Part shown: piece by piece, positions 1-58,862 of the stretch
Position numbering within the stretch: position 1 is the stretch's first letter
Layout: each line of letters starts with the position of its first letter
Source: Metabacillus flavus
GTDB lineage: Bacteria > Bacillota > Bacilli > Bacillales > Bacillaceae
Direction of reading: 5' to 3'
NCBI RefSeq assembly: GCF_018283675.1
Contig: NZ_JAGVRK010000001.1
Coordinates: 2,542,001-2,606,000, forward strand
DNA: 64,000 nt
Made by a program: the position numbers and the translations under genes
The notes under the pieces: model-generated
Told to the model about the DNA's origin: nothing
The model's input: only the letters and a program-made list of their open reading frames with translations
The model's database searches: none

Positions 1-1515
1 GTTCATTCTGATAATATGCTTTTTCCTGAGTGTTCTCTCCATCCGGTCAATCCGGTCTTCCGCCTCAAGAACGCGGTTGGCAAGTCCGATGTCTCGGTCA
101 TCCAGAGACTGAACTGCATGTTCAAGCGTTTTAACGGTTAAATCGAACATTTCCTCGAGGTCTTCTATAGCCTCGTCCGTTATTTTTACTTTGTTCGATA
201 GCTTATAGTCCACTAATTCAATGATGTTTTCGAAATGATCGCCTACCCGCTCAATGTCCCTGACAGTGTCAATTAAAACAGAGTGTTCAGCCGACTCATT
301 CTCATCCATTTCATTGCGGGATATAAGGATTAAATAGTCCGTAATTTTGCGGTCAAGATTGTTGATCACTTCTTCAATCTGGATCGCAGATTGTGCGTGC
401 TTCTGCTGATTGGTTTTTAAATAGCCATTCGCTTCTTTTAGCCCCTTTACAGAGAAGCGCCCCATTCTCAGCACTTCTTCTTTTGCCTGACCAAGTGCAA
501 TGGAGGATGATTGTTCTATAAATAAAGGATCCAAATGCTTTGAACGGTACTCAATGGACGGATCTTCACCTGGAATAATCTTTGTTGCCGCCCAGGCAAG
601 CGCCCCGATAAATGGAAGCTGAATAAGTGCATTTGTTACATTAAACGTGCCATGTGCAAAAGCAATCGTCATTGCCGGACTTAAATTGAGATTTGTCTCC
701 AGAGATTCAATAAAAATCGTGTACAATGGCAAAACAATTAAAAAGATTGAGGTCCCTGCCAGGTTGAAGATGACATGAGCCATCGCTGCCCTTCTTGCAG
801 CCAATGAAGCACCGATTGATGCGAGTACTGCCGTAATCGTTGTGCCAATATTATCTCCAAACATGACTGGAAGAGCCGCATGCAAATCGACAAGATTCTG
901 GCCGTATAACTCCTGCAGAATACCGATTGTTGCACTCGAGCTTTGAACTACACCTGTCAGCAGCGTCCCTGCTAAAACTCCAAGGAGCGGATTAGCACTT
1001 AGTCCTACAGTTAAATCCTGAAACAGAGACAGGGTACCAAGCGGCTTCATACCGTTCCCCATTAATTCCAAACCGAAAAAAAGAGCCCCAAAACCAAATA
1101 CGACTTGTCCAGCATAATGAACCTTTTTATTTTTAATGAAATACAAAAGGATGGCTCCGGCAGCTATAATCGGAAGTGAATATTCCGACACGTGGAATCC
1201 AATAATGAAGGCTGTCACAGTAGTGCCGATATTTGCCCCCATAATGACTCCAATCGCTTGCGGTAAATTCATAAACCCTGCACTGACCAGACCGACTGCA
1301 ATAACCGTCGTTCCGCTGCTTGATTGAATTAATACGGTAACCGCCATTCCAGCAAGAACCGCCATAACAGGATTGGTCGTAAACCGGTCGAGCATATCGC
1401 GCAGCCGGTTACCCGCAGAACGCTGTAATCCTTCTCCCATATATTTTATTCCAAATAAAAAGATCCCCAGTCCCCCCACAAATTCAAAAATCACTCGTTG
1501 GAGATCTAATTCCAT
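1..1515 (-). CDS. Na/Pi cotransporter family protein (3' end cut by window)
   Basis: A 505-codon open frame starts at ATG 1515 and runs off the left edge, so the C-terminus is missing. It has the two inverted Na/Pi-cotransporter halves, each with the QSSS signature: QSSSGTT at residues 64-70 and QSSSAT near 195. Many hydrophobic helices fill about residues 8-320. A long helical tail from about residue 350 resembles a PhoU-like domain. The family imports phosphate with sodium across the cytoplasmic membrane (NptA/YqeW type). It is divergent from yqgB, about 200 bp away. I am sure of the family; the substrate is inferred. Confidence 0.88.
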   Translation of the reverse strand, partial: MELDLQRVIFEFVGGLGIFLFGIKYMGEGLQRSAGNRLRDMLDRFTTNPVMAVLAGMAVTVLIQSSSGTTVIAVGLVSAGFMNLPQAIGVIMGANIGTTVTAFIIGFHVSEYSLPIIAAGAILLYFIKNKKVHYAGQVVFGFGALFFGLELMGNGMKPLGTLSLFQDLTVGLSANPLLGVLAGTLLTGVVQSSSATIGILQELYGQNLVDLHAALPVMFGDNIGTTITAVLASIGASLAARRAAMAHVIFNLAGTSIFLIVLPLYTIFIESLETNLNLSPAMTIAFAHGTFNVTNALIQLPFIGALAWAATKIIPGEDPSIEYRSKHLDPLFIEQSSSIALGQAKEEVLRMGRFSVKGLKEANGYLKTNQQKHAQSAIQIEEVINNLDRKITDYLILISRNEMDENESAEHSVLIDTVRDIERVGDHFENIIELVDYKLSNKVKITDEAIEDLEEMFDLTVKTLEHAVQSLDDRDIGLANRVLEAEDRIDRMERTLRKKHIIRMN

Positions 1516-1717
1516 CCGTATTTCCCTCCAGCTTTCTCTCTTTATTACGTTAATCAAGTCAATTATTAATGGATTGTGTATTTATTGTAAAGCTTTTTCG
1601 ATAAAAAGACTCATATTTTTACAAACATGGATATTTTCATTCAGCAGGACGAAACTTGTTTATACAGCTGCTCAAGAGTAAAATAAAATGGGATTGAATG
1701 ATAAAGGAAGTGAACGC

Positions 1718-2500
1718 GTGAACGTATTCAAACAGCTTGCAAAAAGTCTTTACTCTCCGAAGGATATCGCTTCGTTCCGATTTCAGGGAATTGGAAAAAC
1801 TATTCTTTATGTATTCATATTGAGCCTCGTGACCATCGTGCCGGCTTCTATTTTCCTTGGCCTGACAATCAGCAGCAGCATCACTGCTGCTCAGCAGACG
1901 ATTCAAAGCGATCTTCCCGGCTTCGCTATTAAAAATGGAGAACTCACAGCCGAAACGGATAAACCTCTTGAAATTAAGGATGGAGAACTTTTCATCGTGC
2001 TGGACCCGACCGGATCGTTCACTTCAAAGGAACTTGAACTAAAACAGAATGCAGTTGGAATCCTGAAAAAGGAATTTGTTCTTGTTTCCAACGGTACTGC
2101 CCAGTCCATTCCATATAATAGTGCGGGTAACTTCAGTATTACAAAGGATCAAATTGTTGATTTTGCGGATCAAACCGGACAGTTAAAGCCTGTTATTATT
2201 GGTGCTGCCATCGTTCTGCTTTATTTAATCTCCTCATTTTCCAAGTTTGTAGAAGTGACGATTCTGGCTTTATTAGGGCTCATCATCCGCAGCATGCTCA
2301 AGAAAAAAGTGAATTACAAGCAATCCTGGGTTATGTCGGCCTATTCTGTCACTCTTGCCACATTATTCCTGACGATTATGAATGCTGTTCAGGCAGCTGT
2401 ACCGAGCCAGGGCCTTGTCATATGGTTCGTTCATCTTGTCATGCTCTATCTTTCAATAAAAGAGGTTCCTTCAAAGAAAGAACCCGCTGTCATTGTTTAA
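1718..2500 (+). CDS. yqgB: DUF1189 membrane protein (YqgB-like)
   Basis: A 260-residue membrane protein. An in-frame ATG lies upstream, but the AAAGGAAG ribosome site fits the GTG at 1718 (MNVFKQLAKSLYSPKDIA). One helix at about residues 25-50 is followed by an extracytoplasmic segment of about 110 residues and three to four C-terminal helices. This is the DUF1189 layout. Function is unknown. The place next to yqfZ/ispG matches yqgB of B. subtilis. It ends at a terminator shared with the convergent chemoreceptor gene. Confidence 0.8.
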   Translation: MNVFKQLAKSLYSPKDIASFRFQGIGKTILYVFILSLVTIVPASIFLGLTISSSITAAQQTIQSDLPGFAIKNGELTAETDKPLEIKDGELFIVLDPTGSFTSKELELKQNAVGILKKEFVLVSNGTAQSIPYNSAGNFSITKDQIVDFADQTGQLKPVIIGAAIVLLYLISSFSKFVEVTILALLGLIIRSMLKKKVNYKQSWVMSAYSVTLATLFLTIMNAVQAAVPSQGLVIWFVHLVMLYLSIKEVPSKKEPAVIV

Positions 2501-2504
2501 ATGT

Positions 2505-2541
2505 AAAAACGGCCGAGCGTGCATTCGCTTTGGCCGTTTTT
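2505..2541. terminator. Bidirectional intrinsic terminator
   Basis: The arms AAAAACGGCC and GGCCGTTTTT form a strong stem, with A and T runs on both sides. It sits between the convergent ends of yqgB (plus) and the chemoreceptor gene (minus), so it can serve both. Confidence 0.85.
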
Positions 2542-2554
2542 CGAACACCTTTTT

Positions 2555-4333
2555 TTATTTTGCCAGTTTAAACTCGTTTGTCAGGCTTGACAGCTCATTG
2601 GAAAGGCTTGTCAGTTTGTTCCCAATCTCATGGGTGTGATTGATTTGAACCATCTGCTCTTCAGATGAGGCGAGCATTTGTTCCGCACTTGCTAATGTCT
2701 CCTGGGAAACCGATACGAAGTTTTCAGTTGACTGCTCCATCAAGGGCATACTTTCCTGAAGAGAGTGCATATTGCTGTTCATCTCTTTAAGCTCCGCATT
2801 CACACTTTTCATTTCTTCCATTAAATGATCAAACGAATACCTCGATTCTTCCGCAGCTGTTAAATGCGATTTCAGGCTGCTGTGGAGCTCTCCAAATTCA
2901 TTGGATGCTTTAATTGAGATATTTTCCATTTTTTGAACAGAGCCTTTTATTTCTTCCGCTGCTTTTGAGGATTGATCAGCGAGTTTTCTGACTTCATTTG
3001 CAACGACTGCGAAACCTTTACCAGATTCCCCCGCCCTTGCTGCCTCAATTGCAGCATTTAATGCCAGCAATTTTGTCTGCTCTGAAACCGATTGAATTAA
3101 GCTGACTACCTTTGAAATAGAGCTGGAATGGTTTTTTACCCCGCGAATTATTTCATTCATTTTCTCAAATTCCAGTCCGAACTCATGAATTTCGCTGATA
3201 AGACCTGAGATCTTTTTCCCTCCCTTGTCCGCTGACTCATTCATTCCTTCCGCACTTTTAAATAAGTATTCCATGCTTGTTAATGCGGTTTTAATTTCTC
3301 CTTTCATCTGATTGAACGCGGCCACGCTTGTTTCCGATGTAGCAGCTGTCTGTTCGGCACCCATTTTTACCACTTTGATGGCTTCCACAAGCTGTTCATT
3401 CTGATCCAGTACATCAGCAGAAGACGCAGTCAGTTCAGAGCCTGTTTGTGATAAGTCCAGCGTGGTTGAATTCATATTCGATATCATCGTTCTCATTTGA
3501 GCAATCATTTGATTAAAGCTTGTCACTAGCGATCTGATTTCAGGAATATTGGTCTTTATTTCTTTTCCTGAATCCAGACTTCCCTCTCTTACCTGTTTCA
3601 TTACAACTCTTAACTGGGATAGCGGCTTCGTCAGTCCTCTTACAAAAAATACAATCAAGATGGTAGCAATCAGAATGCTGATAGCTACTGTCCATGCTGT
3701 AAAGTTCGCCAAGGAATAGATAGGAGCCAGATAACTCTCTGTCTCTACAGCTATAATCATAATTCCTTTTAGCTCCTGAATTTCCTTTATGGACAGAGTG
3801 TAATCTACACCGTTTATTTTTTTGTGAACAATGGTCTGCTTTTCATTTTTCGCAAGATCCCCTAATTCTTGATACTTAAGTTCTTCCCCGGTACCTTCAA
3901 GCATTGTTACCTGCTTATCCTTTAGAAGGTAAAAATCTGCGTTCAAGCCATCCTGAATCAGCTGGCTGGATTGGTTAGGCAAAACCGTTTTATTAAATCG
4001 CTTGTTAAATCCTTCTTCGTCGCCAATATACGCGAACATCAGATTACCGGCTATTTCATTTGTTGTATTCACTTCCCGCTCAAGACGGTTTTCGATTATG
4101 GAAATGGTTGTTTCTTTCGCTTTTTGATAAGAAGTGATCCCAACTACTAATACGGAGGTAACAAGTATAAATAGAACAAGTGCGATGATCCGTGTCTGAA
4201 GGCTAAAGCCATTTTTGATTCCGCTGGAATTTTTGCCAAGGTTTGAGGCTGATTTCATGAACCGTTCAGCTGACTGTTTAAAAGCAAGAAAATATTGTCT
4301 ATCCGGAAGCCGTCTTAGCCATATTCGTTTCAT
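2555..4333 (-). CDS. Methyl-accepting chemotaxis protein
   Basis: A 592-residue transmembrane chemoreceptor. TM1 is at about residues 49-67 and TM2 at about 212-232, enclosing a roughly 140-residue extracellular sensor. A HAMP linker follows, then the signalling coiled coil. The conserved hairpin tip is visible ([19 protein letters not shown]), the part that contacts CheA/CheW. The 48-residue N-terminal tail before TM1 is long for the family, so an internal start is possible, but the AAAAGGAG site fits ATG 4333. The ligand cannot be read from sequence. It is a single gene with no chemotaxis neighbours. Confidence 0.93.
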
Positions 4334-4510
4334 AAATGGAAAATTCTCCTTTTAAAGTACATAATGTGAAATGTAATTAAATTATCCCAAAAAAATGTTA
4401 AGGAAGTGTAAATTTCACATTAATTTTTGCGGGTTTTTGTCGAAATTTAGTTCTTTTATCATGTTTTATATCCATTATTTTTCTTAAACTTAGGTATTAG
4501 GAATCCATTT

Positions 4511-4540
4511 AACATTATTTTGATTGGACAAGCATAGGAT
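4511..4540 (+). promoter_or_regulatory. Possible SigE-type promoter of yqfZ
   Basis: ACATTATTT is followed after about 13 bases by CATAGGAT, which resembles the mother-cell SigE -35/-10 pair. It lies 32 bases before yqfZ. Only the -10 is a reasonable match, so this is tentative. Confidence 0.3.
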
Positions 4541-4572
4541 GAACTAAGTCTAAAATTAAGGATGATCAGCCA

Positions 4573-4887
4573 ATGAAAAGACTCATTCTGCTGTGCTCGA
4601 TCGCACTGCTCACATATATCATTTATTATGATTTAAGCAGGGGGACCCTTCCCAGGATGGAAGAGGAGAACATAATGGCGGCCTCACAGCCTGTAAAGAA
4701 GGAGACCTTTAAAAAGCTTCATGTCCAAAAAGGGGAATCCGTTCTCATGATCATCAATAAAGTAAACGGTCATTCCATTCCGGTCCCCCTGGAAACTGCA
4801 GCAGAGGATTTCGAAAAGCTCAATCCTGGAATAAAAGCGAATAGAATTCTTACCGGACACTCCTACAAATTCCCTGTTTATGAGTAG
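4573..4887 (+). CDS. yqfZ: YqfZ-like membrane-anchored LysM-type protein
   Basis: A 104-residue protein with an N-terminal hydrophobic anchor (residues 1-18). The C-terminal segment, about residues 48-103, resembles a LysM fold (KLHVQKGESVLMIINKVNGH near its start; LNPGIKANRILTGHSYKFP at its end). LysM modules bind peptidoglycan, so it probably sits at the cell or spore envelope. Start ATG 4573 has AAGGATG eight bases upstream. It precedes ispG on the same strand with a 107-bp gap. Size and location match B. subtilis YqfZ. Biological role unknown. Confidence 0.72.
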   Translation: MKRLILLCSIALLTYIIYYDLSRGTLPRMEEENIMAASQPVKKETFKKLHVQKGESVLMIINKVNGHSIPVPLETAAEDFEKLNPGIKANRILTGHSYKFPVYE

Positions 4888-4994
4888 CCGTTTTGTCTAA
4901 TTCCTTGTCAATACTGCTAAATGACTGATACAATATGATAGGAAAAGATATCATTCCGGTTACCAAACCTATATGAATAAGGAGCGATCCACTC

Positions 4995-6107
4995 GTGGGT
5001 GAAATCACACATCGTACAAAGACTCGTCCCGTCAAAGTCGGTAATTTAACGATTGGCGGAAGCAACGAGCTGATTATACAAAGCATGACCACAACTAAGA
5101 CACACGACGTTGAAGCAACGGTTGCAGAAATTAACCGTCTCGAGGAAGCTGGCTGCCAGGTCGTTCGGGTTGCATGTCCGGATGAGCGCGCTGCAGATGC
5201 GATTGCTGAAATCAAGAAGCGGATCAACATTCCTCTTGTGGTTGATATCCATTTTGACTATAAACTGGCTCTTAAAGCCATTGAAGGCGGAGCAGATAAA
5301 ATCCGGATTAATCCTGGTAATATCGGCCGCAAAGAAAAAGTAGAAGCTGTGGTAAATGCGGCAAAAGCAAAAGGCATTCCGATCCGCATTGGAGTGAATG
5401 CTGGATCCCTTGAAAAACGGATTCTTGAAAAATACGGCTATCCGACTGCAGATGGAATGGTCGAAAGCGCGCTGCATCACATTAAAATTTTGGAAGATCT
5501 TGATTTTCACGATATTATCGTATCAATGAAAGCTTCCGACGTTAATTTAGCGATTGAAGCATATGAGAAAGCTTCAAAAGCATTTGACTACCCGCTTCAT
5601 CTCGGTATAACTGAATCAGGCACCCTGTTTGCAGGCACTGTAAAAAGTGCAGCAGGTTTAGGAGCCATCCTCCGTATGGGAATCGGGAATACCCTGCGCA
5701 TCTCGTTAAGCGCGGATCCTGTTGAAGAGGTTAAAGTAGCAAGAGAGCTCCTTAAATCATTCGGACTTGCTTCAAATGCTGCAACGCTGATTTCATGTCC
5801 AACATGCGGACGGATTGAAATCGACCTGATCAGCATTGCAAATGAAGTAGAAGAATACATTTCCACCATTAAAGCACCGATAAAAGTTGCTGTGCTTGGA
5901 TGTGCAGTAAATGGGCCTGGTGAAGCCCGGGAAGCGGATATCGGAATTGCCGGAGCACGCAAAGAGGGATTGCTGTTCATGAAAGGGCAGATTGTCCGAA
6001 AAGTCCCTGAAGAAACCATGGTCGAAGAGCTTAAAAAAGAAATCGATAAATTAGCGGAAGCTCATTACGCCAAAGAAGCGGCGGAAAAAGCAGAAGCTCA
6101 GGCATAA
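4995..6107 (+). CDS. ispG: 4-hydroxy-3-methylbut-2-enyl diphosphate synthase (flavodoxin)
   Basis: IspG/GcpE (370 residues) converts 2-C-methyl-D-erythritol 2,4-cyclodiphosphate to HMBPP in the MEP isoprenoid pathway. The N-terminal TIM barrel is intact. The 4Fe-4S ligands are visible as Cys268 and Cys271 (SCPTCGR), Cys303 and Glu310 (GCAVNGPGE). Start is GTG 4995 behind AAGGAG. The next enzyme of the pathway, IspH, is also in this window (14445). A strong terminator follows the stop. Confidence 0.97.
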
Positions 6108-48355: not shown

Positions 48356-48419
48356 AATCCTCTCAACTCCCGAATTCTCACATAAAGTAAATTGTATCAT
48401 TTTTTAATGAATAGTAGCA

Positions 48420-48900
48420 ACACAGAAAAGCGGAGGGCGCTTGAACGTGCCGACTGGGGCATTGGAGCTTTCGACCGAGAGGCGCTCTTTGCCTCGACCG
48501 AGGAAGCGAAATGACCCTGCGGCACAGCGCCCGCAGCTAGACAACACAGAAAAGCGGAGGCGGCTCGTTCAGGCCCGACAGACGGTGGAGCTGGAACTGA
48601 CAAAGTCGCCTTTTGACTTTGACAGGGCCAGCGAAGCGTCCGAGGGACTAGCCGCCGCAGCTGGACAACACAGAAAAGCGAAGGGCGCTCAAATAAGGTT
48701 GTTCTGCTAAGACCGCGACGTCCTGTCGCAACGCAGAACTGACCTGCATCGTTCAGGCCCGAGCTGGAACTGACAAAAGTCGCCTTTTGACTTTGACAAG
48801 GCCAGCGAAGCGTCCGAGGGACTAGGCCAGTCAATACATAAAAGCGGAGGGGGCCTGTTATAAATAAGCACCAAACCGGCCTTCCTCCTTGCCGCTCATG
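48420..48900. repeat. Array of about 124-bp repeats between dnaK and dnaJ
   Basis: Four units begin ACACAGAAAAGCG or similar at 48420, 48544, 48668 and 48836 (spacing 124, 124, 168). Unit 1 opens GGGCGCT (48435) and closes AGCGCCC (48526). Unit 2 opens GGCGGCT (48559) and closes AGCCGCC (48650), so the stems covary. Units 2 and 3 share GCCAGCGAAGCGTCCGAGGG. The minus-strand ORF across it is a product of GC-rich repeats, not a gene. Confidence 0.7.
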
Positions 48901-48962
48901 CTGCATGAAGCGTTCCCATGCATTTTATTGCTATAAGCTTCCGCCTGTTCTCAGCTAATCGT

Positions 48963-56102: not shown

Positions 56103-56447
56103 CTATTTATCTTTTTCCCCCTTCACGGCAGAAATCAGTTTGCCAAAAAGGTTTTCAATACCAGAGGAAATTCCTTTAGCAGCCTCCGACAAAGGATTGA
56201 ATGCTTCCATGCTTTCGAGCTGCTTTCTTTTCGTTTCCAAATCATGGCTAGTAATCGATTGGCCGAGAACAGAGGCCTCAATCTCCTGATCCTGTCTGCT
56301 GTTTTTTATTATGAATGCACTTTTCATATCTGGATTATCATATCCCTGGAGATTTTTCATTCCGTTCCCGGCAATCTGCATTCCCATTAGGACACCTAAG
56401 AAAAGAAGTGCTGCAAAAAGGGTGGTTTTCAGCATGAATTTTCCCAT
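56103..56447 (-). CDS. yqxA: YqxA-like membrane-anchored protein
   Basis: A 114-residue protein with one N-terminal membrane helix (about 6-24, KTTLFAALLFLGVLMGMQIA) and a polar tail with NMKNLQGYDNPDM-like text (GMKNLQGYDNPDMKSAF). Start ATG 56447 has GAGGG; the longer reading overlaps spoIIP. It lies between spoIIP and lepA as in B. subtilis. Function unknown, probably sporulation-linked through spoIIP. Confidence 0.8.
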   Translation of the reverse strand: MGKFMLKTTLFAALLFLGVLMGMQIAGNGMKNLQGYDNPDMKSAFIIKNSRQDQEIEASVLGQSITSHDLETKRKQLESMEAFNPLSEAAKGISSGIENLFGKLISAVKGEKDK

Positions 56448-56466
56448 TCGAATCCCTCGCGTCTTT

Positions 56467-57662
56467 TTATTTCTTCTCTGTCTTGACGTCAGCCTGAACT
56501 TTTTCAGCCTGCCAGTAAAATTCGCTGAATACATCAGCAACAGCCTTTGTCGTATTTCTCAATTCTTCCATATTATTATCCACTCCCCCAAATTCCATAA
56601 GGAGGGAATTTCCAGATAAATCCTGATTAAACAGTCCGTTCGAATTTTTTATTTTCAATGTGACCCCTTTACTAAGACCGGGATATTTTTCAGACAGTTT
56701 AGCATGAAGTGTTTTAGCGAGTTCAATGTTTTTTTCGCGATTCGTATTCTTCCCCCCTACCACAAATACAAGCTGAGCATAGGCTTTCCCCTTTATCGAT
56801 ACAGTTGTATCAGCATGAGGTCGGGAATCACGGTGGATATCGATTAGATAAGCAAGATCCTTGCCGGAAGTCATCGCTTCTTGTACGACTGGTCTTGCAG
56901 CAGAGTAGGACTGGCTATATTTCATTTTCTTGTCCTTTAATAATTTCTGAATATCTTTTTGCTCAACACGGGTCCCGACTCCTTGAGCCTCCAATTCATC
57001 GGCCAGCATTTTTCCTACAAGAGTGACGTTCGCACTTTTGTGAAAGGCATCGTCCGGATTCTTGGATGGATCTTTAAACAGCGGCAAATATGATTCTGTA
57101 TTGTGCGTGTTGTAAATATACACCACTTTTTTATCACCTGTATTTTGGACCGGAGGCTTAACCGTCCCCTCCGTCTTAGCTGAAGCCTTTCGCAGCTCCT
57201 CAATTGATGCCTCCCGTTCCTGAAGCTGCACTTCTTCAGGAGGTGCAGATTCAAAAGGAATAATTGTGCTGTAATTGCCCCCTCACCCGCAACAATGATT
57301 TCGCTGTCATATAAGGAAAACCCCGGAAGCTCCCTTCCAAGCAAGCTCCTCGGATCATTCAGGTTAATACTTGCGGCGAGCTTCAAGAACATAGAGGACC
57401 AATCAGCTGGCTTGCTTTCCACCGGCAGCGCCTGCGTGAAGTAATGATTTTCAGTTCCCATTAAATGAACGAACGCTTCTCCTGCAATCCCGTCTGCGAG
57501 ACTGTGAATGGAAGTTGAAGCTGGACGGTATTGAGGCTTTAAAGAGGTAAGGACCCCTGACAAAACAAAAATAAATACAAGGCCCATAAAGGCCGAAATG
57601 AGCAGTTTTTTAATGCTTGTCCCGCTGATCGCCATTATGGGGGCTGTGCTTGTCCGTTTCAT
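56467..57662 (-). pseudogene. spoIIP: Stage II sporulation protein P, frameshifted
   Basis: SpoIIP is a peptidoglycan amidase/endopeptidase of the SpoIIDMP engulfment complex. Frame one (start ATG 57662) reads the membrane anchor (LLISAFMGLVFIFVLSGVL) to LYDSEIIVAGEG. The rest, from NYSTIIPFESAPPEEVQLQE to the stop, lies in another frame and holds the zinc ligands (YIYNTHNTESY, DIHRDS, LLMEFGG). The shift falls at a C5 run (57278-57282). One extra base would restore a 398-residue protein. Either a true mutation or a homopolymer error. Confidence 0.88.
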
Positions 57663-57673
57663 GCAAATCCGTC

Positions 57674-57717
57674 CTCTCGCAGAATGTCTTATACATTCTA
57701 TGGACAATCTGCGAGAG
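57674..57717 (-). other. Inverted repeat over the spoIIP ribosome site
   Basis: CTCTCGCAGA (57674) pairs with TCTGCGAGAG (57708), with inner GTC/GAC pairing. There is no T-run. The spoIIP ribosome site (GAGAGG) lies in one arm. Confidence 0.6.
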
Positions 57718-57731
57718 TTAGAACCAAAATG

Positions 57732-58862
57732 CTAGTGTGTGTAAGTGCCTCTATTATCGTGGCCAATATGTCCGTGAAGGGCTGAATTCAGCCCGCTTGC
57801 AATGACATTGGCCATGTCACTGATGAATACATCCACTTCCTTCGGTGTGACCATTAGGTTATGCCCAAGCGGATTTAACACTTCATGAATCAGCGCGCGC
57901 TTTTCTTCCTCTGGCAGCGTCCCGATAATACCCAAATAAGTTTGCCGATGTTCCTCGCCGGGAAGATCTTCATCGCTTAATTTTTTGCGCTCTCCAAAAG
58001 ACATTCCTGCCGGGACAAGCGACCTGGATGGGCGGTCTCCCTGTGCCATTTCCCTGCCAAAATGCTTCAGGATATAATCAATCGTGTCGCTTGCGATGGT
58101 GACGGCGTCCACTACGGTTGGTATACCGATGGCAATCACCGGGATTCCCAGTGTTTCCAGGCTTAATTCTTTTCGTTTGTTGCCTACACCGGATCCTGGA
58201 TGGATCCCTGTATCAGATATTTGAATTGTCGCATTGACCCGCTCAACCGATCTCGCTGCAAGGGCATCGATTGCAATTATAAAATCAGGTTTGATCCGGT
58301 TGACAACTCCTAAAATAATGTCGCTCGTTTCAATTCCCGTGAGCCCCATTACTCCAGGCGAGATGACACTGACTGGACGGTAGCCTTCTTGAACATTTTC
58401 CGGCTGCAGCTCGAATAAATGCCTTGTCACAAGAAGATTTTCCGCTGCAATCGGTCCAAGTGCGTCGGGCGTAACATTCCAGTTCCCCAGGCCTGCTATC
58501 AGGCATGAGGCCTCTTTATTAATTCCAAGGTTTTCGATGAATTTGCTGAATTCCCTTGCAAATACACCGATTACCTCCTGCTGCAGATCCGTATCCTTTT
58601 GTCTGATACCGTCTGCTTGAATGGTCAGATAATTGCCGGCTTTTTTACCCGTAGCCTCCTCGCCCTCTTTTTTGATTTCTACAGAGGTGAGTTTTATTTC
58701 CCCTTCGGTCCGTTCTTTGACGATTATTCCCTTCACTTCTCCATTATCTGAAGGATTAGGCTGAGATTGACTTTTTTCCTGCTGTTCCAGCGCAAGGTCT
58801 CTTGCTTCAATAGCAAGATCAGTACGAACGGTATAATTTCCTAAATCAAGCGAGTCACTCAT
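57732..58862 (-). CDS. gpr: Germination protease GPR
   Basis: A 376-residue aspartic-type protease that degrades small acid-soluble spore proteins at germination. It has a short N-terminal propeptide (cut in B. subtilis around residue 16), the conserved [34 protein letters not shown] and [23 protein letters not shown] lies before ATG 58862. It is the first gene of gpr-spoIIP-yqxA. Confidence 0.96.

Follow-up and report, generated by a model that had tools for sequence, protein, structure and literature searches.

The question raised by this locus is whether Metabacillus flavus has lost SpoIIP or whether a base is missing only from its deposited sequence. The gene lies in a stretch of 64,000 nucleotides (here called the window) that corresponds to positions 2,542,001 to 2,606,000 of a 4.03-Mb contig, in a genome assembled in two contigs, the second of them small, with a listed completeness of 99.99%. 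According to PMC9600426, SpoIIP supplies the amidase and endopeptidase activities of the SpoIID-SpoIIM-SpoIIP complex. In the window, spoIIP is located on the minus strand (57662 to 56467) and is split over two reading frames.

Layout of the spoIIP locus

The N-terminal half of the protein, which carries the membrane anchor, reads in frame from an ATG at 57662 to the break (57283 to 57662, minus strand). The frame changes at a run of five C residues (57278 to 57282; G5 on the coding strand), which is one base short compared to four sister copies. From there, the C-terminal amidase half occupies the other frame, which is open (56467 to 57282, minus strand) and includes an internal GTG at 57231. 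The N-terminal frame itself remains open past the run and terminates at a stop at 57015, giving an out-of-frame tail (57015 to 57282, minus strand), so that no stop separates the two overlapping frames. The first-pass annotation had placed the two halves of SpoIIP in different frames with the switch at this C5 run, and the frames, the Pfam match, and the sister alignment all bear this out.

The amidase half matched the Pfam SpoIIP family (PF07454) with an E value of 4.7e-72 and 243.2 bits (cut-off, 24.4), covering profile positions 29 to 269 of 269. This was the only SpoIIP match in the whole genome, in an open frame of 271 aa from stop to stop, and a second spoIIP copy elsewhere in the genome was thus ruled out. 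Among plasmid records, no near match to positions 56400 to 57800 of the window was found. Identities of the amidase half to the proteins of three sisters were 94, 88, and 83%. Named relatives in a protein scan were Bacillus sp. SJS (94% over this half) and Metabacillus mangrovi KCTC 33872 (83%). Residues H53, E56, H143, R144, D145, and E223 of this half fell in columns that are invariant among six aligned proteins. The N-terminal reading frame (215 aa, out-of-frame tail included) matched none of the Pfam families, but its N-terminal half was 95% identical to the protein of sister genome G004 over residues 1 to 128.

Directly upstream of spoIIP lies an intact gpr, encoding the germination protease (57732 to 58862, minus strand; Pfam Peptidase_A25, 1.2e-183, profile positions 1 to 353 of 353), and downstream lies a frame with a complete DUF3679 domain (56103 to 56540, minus strand; Pfam DUF3679, 1.5e-17, profile positions 1 to 56 of 56). 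The gene therefore resembles other members of PF07454 in the profile match of its C-terminal half, the likeness of its N-terminal half to the G004 protein, its position beside gpr, and its single copy. It differs in that anchor and amidase, instead of forming one continuous frame, are deposited in two, the N-terminal half alone being without a Pfam match. Taken literally, these frames would leave an anchor without an enzyme, and we infer that an internal codon, for example the GTG at 57231, would be the sole possible start of the enzyme, yielding an anchorless product. Elsewhere in the window, an internally repeated reading frame was observed between dnaJ-like and dnaK-like genes (48397 to 48906), with an Rfam match to the Bacillaceae-1 RNA at 48691 to 48757.

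spoIIP in related genomes

A comparison of spoIIP with sister genomes, proposed in the first-pass annotation, showed that the best SpoIIP copy forms one open frame of 392 to 427 aa in all five other genomes searched for the genus. In a search of 80 genomes of the family, the present one included, the best copy was an open frame of at least 392 aa in 79 of the 79 others. Natural variation within the family was thus rejected as the cause of the split, even if some secondary copies were short or split. In this survey, G001 carried two SpoIIP copies, the one less similar to that of the window scoring higher against Pfam, and G059 carried an extra copy, apparently in two pieces (C1:1078423-1079252), beside other copies in that genome.

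When positions 56900 to 57700 of the window were aligned with the four sister copies, the sole internal gap was one base in the copy of the window, at the run, and an alignment of the whole gene with that of G004 showed the same single internal gap and no other. The lost base cannot be assigned to a place within the run, the aligner putting the gap at 57283. The break corresponds to codon 126 of a sister gene of 398 aa, in agreement with the length of 398 residues that had been predicted for the intact gene. In one detail the picture departs from the first-pass annotation: the four aligned sister copies have no five-base homopolymer at this site, so that a longer ancestral C run is no more than a possibility.

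Mismatches to G004 were concentrated at third codon positions on both sides of the break, with 6, 3, and 32 mismatches at the first, second, and third positions on the left (379 aligned nt) and 12, 4, and 81 on the right. If the break is real, both halves would thus have been under purifying selection until very recently.

Frame breaks elsewhere in the assembly

A second gene of the same assembly, adk, displays a similar break. It is interrupted at codon 142 of 217 by a one-base loss at a C run (contig 1, about 157,858), and the encoded protein is 99 and 97% identical to that of a sister on the two sides of the break. The genome has a single place for the ADK family, occupied by two pieces in two frames, the second of which alone scores below the family cut-off, while the adk frame was open in all five sister genomes (217 to 221 aa). 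The stretch is not simple at the DNA level, since a few codons past the break the alignment contains two more one-base gaps that compensate each other. The gene is presumably essential in Bacillus, although our literature search retrieved no paper on adk essentiality in this genus. For Escherichia coli, adenylate kinase is given as an essential gene product in PMC3503863. As the strain grew well enough to be sequenced and should need a working adk, this break most likely belongs to the sequence rather than to the cell: a living cell should not be able to dispense with adk.

Frame breaks were audited over 1.2 Mb each of the present genome (4.03 Mb in total) and of G004, and over 0.4 Mb of a second sister, G005. 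Under a strict filter, a frame had to be intact in one genome and frame-shifted in the other, and the alignment on both sides of the break had to span 60 nt or more and show a third-position bias. Over 1.2 Mb, 15 of 957 frames were broken in the present genome compared to 3 of 947 in G004 (Fisher P = 0.007). Removal of doubtful rows left 11 and 1, respectively (P = 0.006). The four rows dropped from the 15 comprised two breaks within the first 25 codons (frames of 388 and 395 aa) and two with weak bias (498 and 181 aa), and the three rows of G004, namely, one at codon 26, one with weak bias, and one 53-nt deletion, were reduced to one by the same trimming. Compared with G005 over 0.4 Mb, 3 of 252 frames were broken here, all of them among the 15 sites and spoIIP included, versus 1 of 253 in G005, and no break was found between the two sisters themselves (0/262 and 0/263).

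Looser audits gave a different picture. Over 0.4 Mb (best match below 93%), 8 of 281 frames were affected here and 10 of 283 in G004, and over 0.8 Mb, splits numbered 10 of 622 and 9 of 618, respectively. Against G005, the 0.8-Mb audit returned 4 of 271 here and 2 of 273 in G004 (own frames, 3/270; G004 frames, 1/270). Extended to 1.2 Mb, the looser audit returned 38 of 1,046 here, and a further looser audit listed 35 rows here (957 frames) and 20 in G004 (947 frames). Judged by eye, many of the looser rows represented upstream start-codon extensions, spurious frames without third-position bias, or breaks of the other genome seen in reverse. With the 0.4- and 0.8-Mb audits almost equal between the genomes, the excess of breaks depends on the strict filter.

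Fourteen of the 15 strict breaks touched a run of four or more identical bases; 13 were one-base losses and two were one-base gains. In nine of the 15, a single base was lost from a G/C run of four to six, and G/C runs of at least four hold 1.3 to 1.6% (about 1.4%) of the bases. Besides spoIIP, these nine affected genes that we take to be adk, carB, ligD, galM, comGB, and genes for a pfkB-type kinase, a 5'-nucleotidase, and a phosphoribosyltransferase-like protein, the assignment of adk being confirmed by its family match. Apart from adk, the broken genes mostly look dispensable for growth, as far as their presumed names tell. In the strict list, six genes besides adk showed a one-base G-run loss relative to G004 (contig 1 at 1216216, 1375043, 1580730, 2417732, 2511902, and 2660783). 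Outside the strict list, a presumably dxs-like gene near 2,428,600 of contig 1 departed from both sisters by a shift of its last codons at an A run. An asparagine-synthase-like gene, for which G005 served as the sole comparison, aligned poorly (68.5% identity) and with many gaps.

It had also been claimed that the other spore genes of the strain are intact. This holds for the few that we looked at, namely, gpr, two SpoIID-family frames (349 and 511 aa), and SpoIIM (224 aa). The LigD-like gene, presumably that of a spore repair enzyme in Bacillus subtilis, is broken in the assembly in the same manner as spoIIP.

Two broader causes found no support. Over 0.8 Mb, the run-length spectrum showed no gross homopolymer collapse in the assembly, G/C runs of six amounting to 80 and 88 per Mb here and 78 and 118 in G004, and those of seven to 10 and 5 here and 12 and 2 in G004. 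A repair-deficient mutator strain was likewise not supported, since the frames of MutS (865 aa) and MutL (612 aa) are open; this concerns the frames as read and not the activity of the proteins.

Sequence error, recent mutation, or slippage

PMC8011154 and PMC12007338 name frame-shifting homopolymer indels as the main systematic error of long-read assemblies. The former describes them for nanopore assemblies, and the latter reports for one long-read assembly that most deletions followed runs of four to five bases. The present case resembles these errors in that one-base run losses fragment genes, in excess over relatives under the strict filter, and affect a housekeeping gene. It differs in extent: the 15 breaks in 1.2 Mb scale to about 50 per genome, compared to 151 to 5,298 pseudogenes given for one polishing pipeline in PMC8011154, and the technology behind the present assembly may be another one. 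Because the run-length spectrum is not collapsed and about 50 breaks lie in the range given for finished genomes, an artefact, if there is one, would be sporadic.

We consider it most probable that the spoIIP break is such an error of the assembled sequence and that spoIIP is ordinary and functional in the strain itself. A single base would have been lost from a G/C run during base calling or polishing, through a homopolymer error that occurs sporadically in the assembly and is common to spoIIP and adk. As spoIIP bears the signature of adk in the same assembly, a shared cause is the simplest account, and we infer that the two genes have it in common. Several observations speak against an artefact. 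Most of the broken genes other than adk seem not to be needed for growth, as would be expected of real mutations, the looser audits showed little or no excess, the spectrum of run lengths is free of gross collapse, and the adk stretch is not simple. Real slippage mutations favor homopolymers too, so that the context alone is not decisive, and the approximately 50 scaled breaks fall inside the range of pseudogenes in finished genomes, given as 12 to 136 in PMC8011154. Together with the near-zero excess in the looser audits, the latter point led us to lower our confidence in a sequence error, which still remains high, and to raise that in a true mutation, which remains low.

The main rival is that slippage truly deleted one base of spoIIP very recently, for instance during laboratory passage, so that the amidase would be lost and sporulation blocked at engulfment while vegetative growth would go on unaffected. 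We regard this as unlikely, yet it is the only alternative of some weight. The gap in the alignment is unambiguous, slippage occurs naturally at G/C runs, neither half of spoIIP has decayed further, as expected of a recent mutation, no second copy is present, and the load of breaks does not exceed that of the finished genomes in PMC8011154. The consequence would also conform to known biology, since engulfment is stated not to begin in cells from which SpoIID and SpoIIP are both missing (PMC9600426). However, one artefact would explain both spoIIP and the like break in the single adk, the best spoIIP copy is whole in every other family genome searched, and the frames of its partners, spoIID-like and spoIIM, are open. 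Hence, of the earlier proposal that a true mutation blocks sporulation in this strain, the split stands as a property of the deposited sequence, whereas the block is not established, the adk break and the strict-filter excess favoring a sequence error.

A programmed or tolerated frameshift, in which the ribosome or the RNA polymerase slips at the run and some full-length SpoIIP is made, appears highly improbable. It would be compatible with the overlap of the two frames without a stop as far as 57015, and the same logic could keep adk alive. Yet the four aligned sisters are in one frame and lack the run, so that the slip site is not conserved, and RNA structure around and downstream of the run was no stronger than in shuffled sequences (z = -0.14; 79 of 200 shuffles folded at least as well). 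In addition, with five bases the G/C run is short for a site of polymerase slippage. We give equally little credence to a broader version, according to which the G/C-run deletions are real, transcription or replication slippage restores enough product, adenylate kinase included, and slippage at the runs of spoIIP and other genes serves as a switch that turns sporulation on or off in a fraction of the cells.

An apparent absence of spoIIP has a precedent. A table footnote in a survey of sporulation genes (PMC3533761) attributes missing spoIIP in one or two genomes to a frameshift or a possible sequencing error. As here, a core sporulation gene seems to be absent and the authors allow for a sequencing error, although other genomes are concerned, A. 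acidocaldarius being the one named for spoIIP in the text. Since such an absence has already been marked there, the pattern itself is not new.

If the break is an artefact, as we favor, SpoIIP itself would serve the SpoIID-SpoIIM-SpoIIP engulfment complex in the way it does in B. subtilis, namely, as an amidase and endopeptidase anchored in the membrane. Gene-loss calls made from the present assembly, lost sporulation included, would then not be trustworthy without the reads, despite its two contigs and its listed completeness. If the mutation is instead real, the strain would be an ordinary spore former apart from a simple spoIIP null of natural origin, which would be useful but not surprising.
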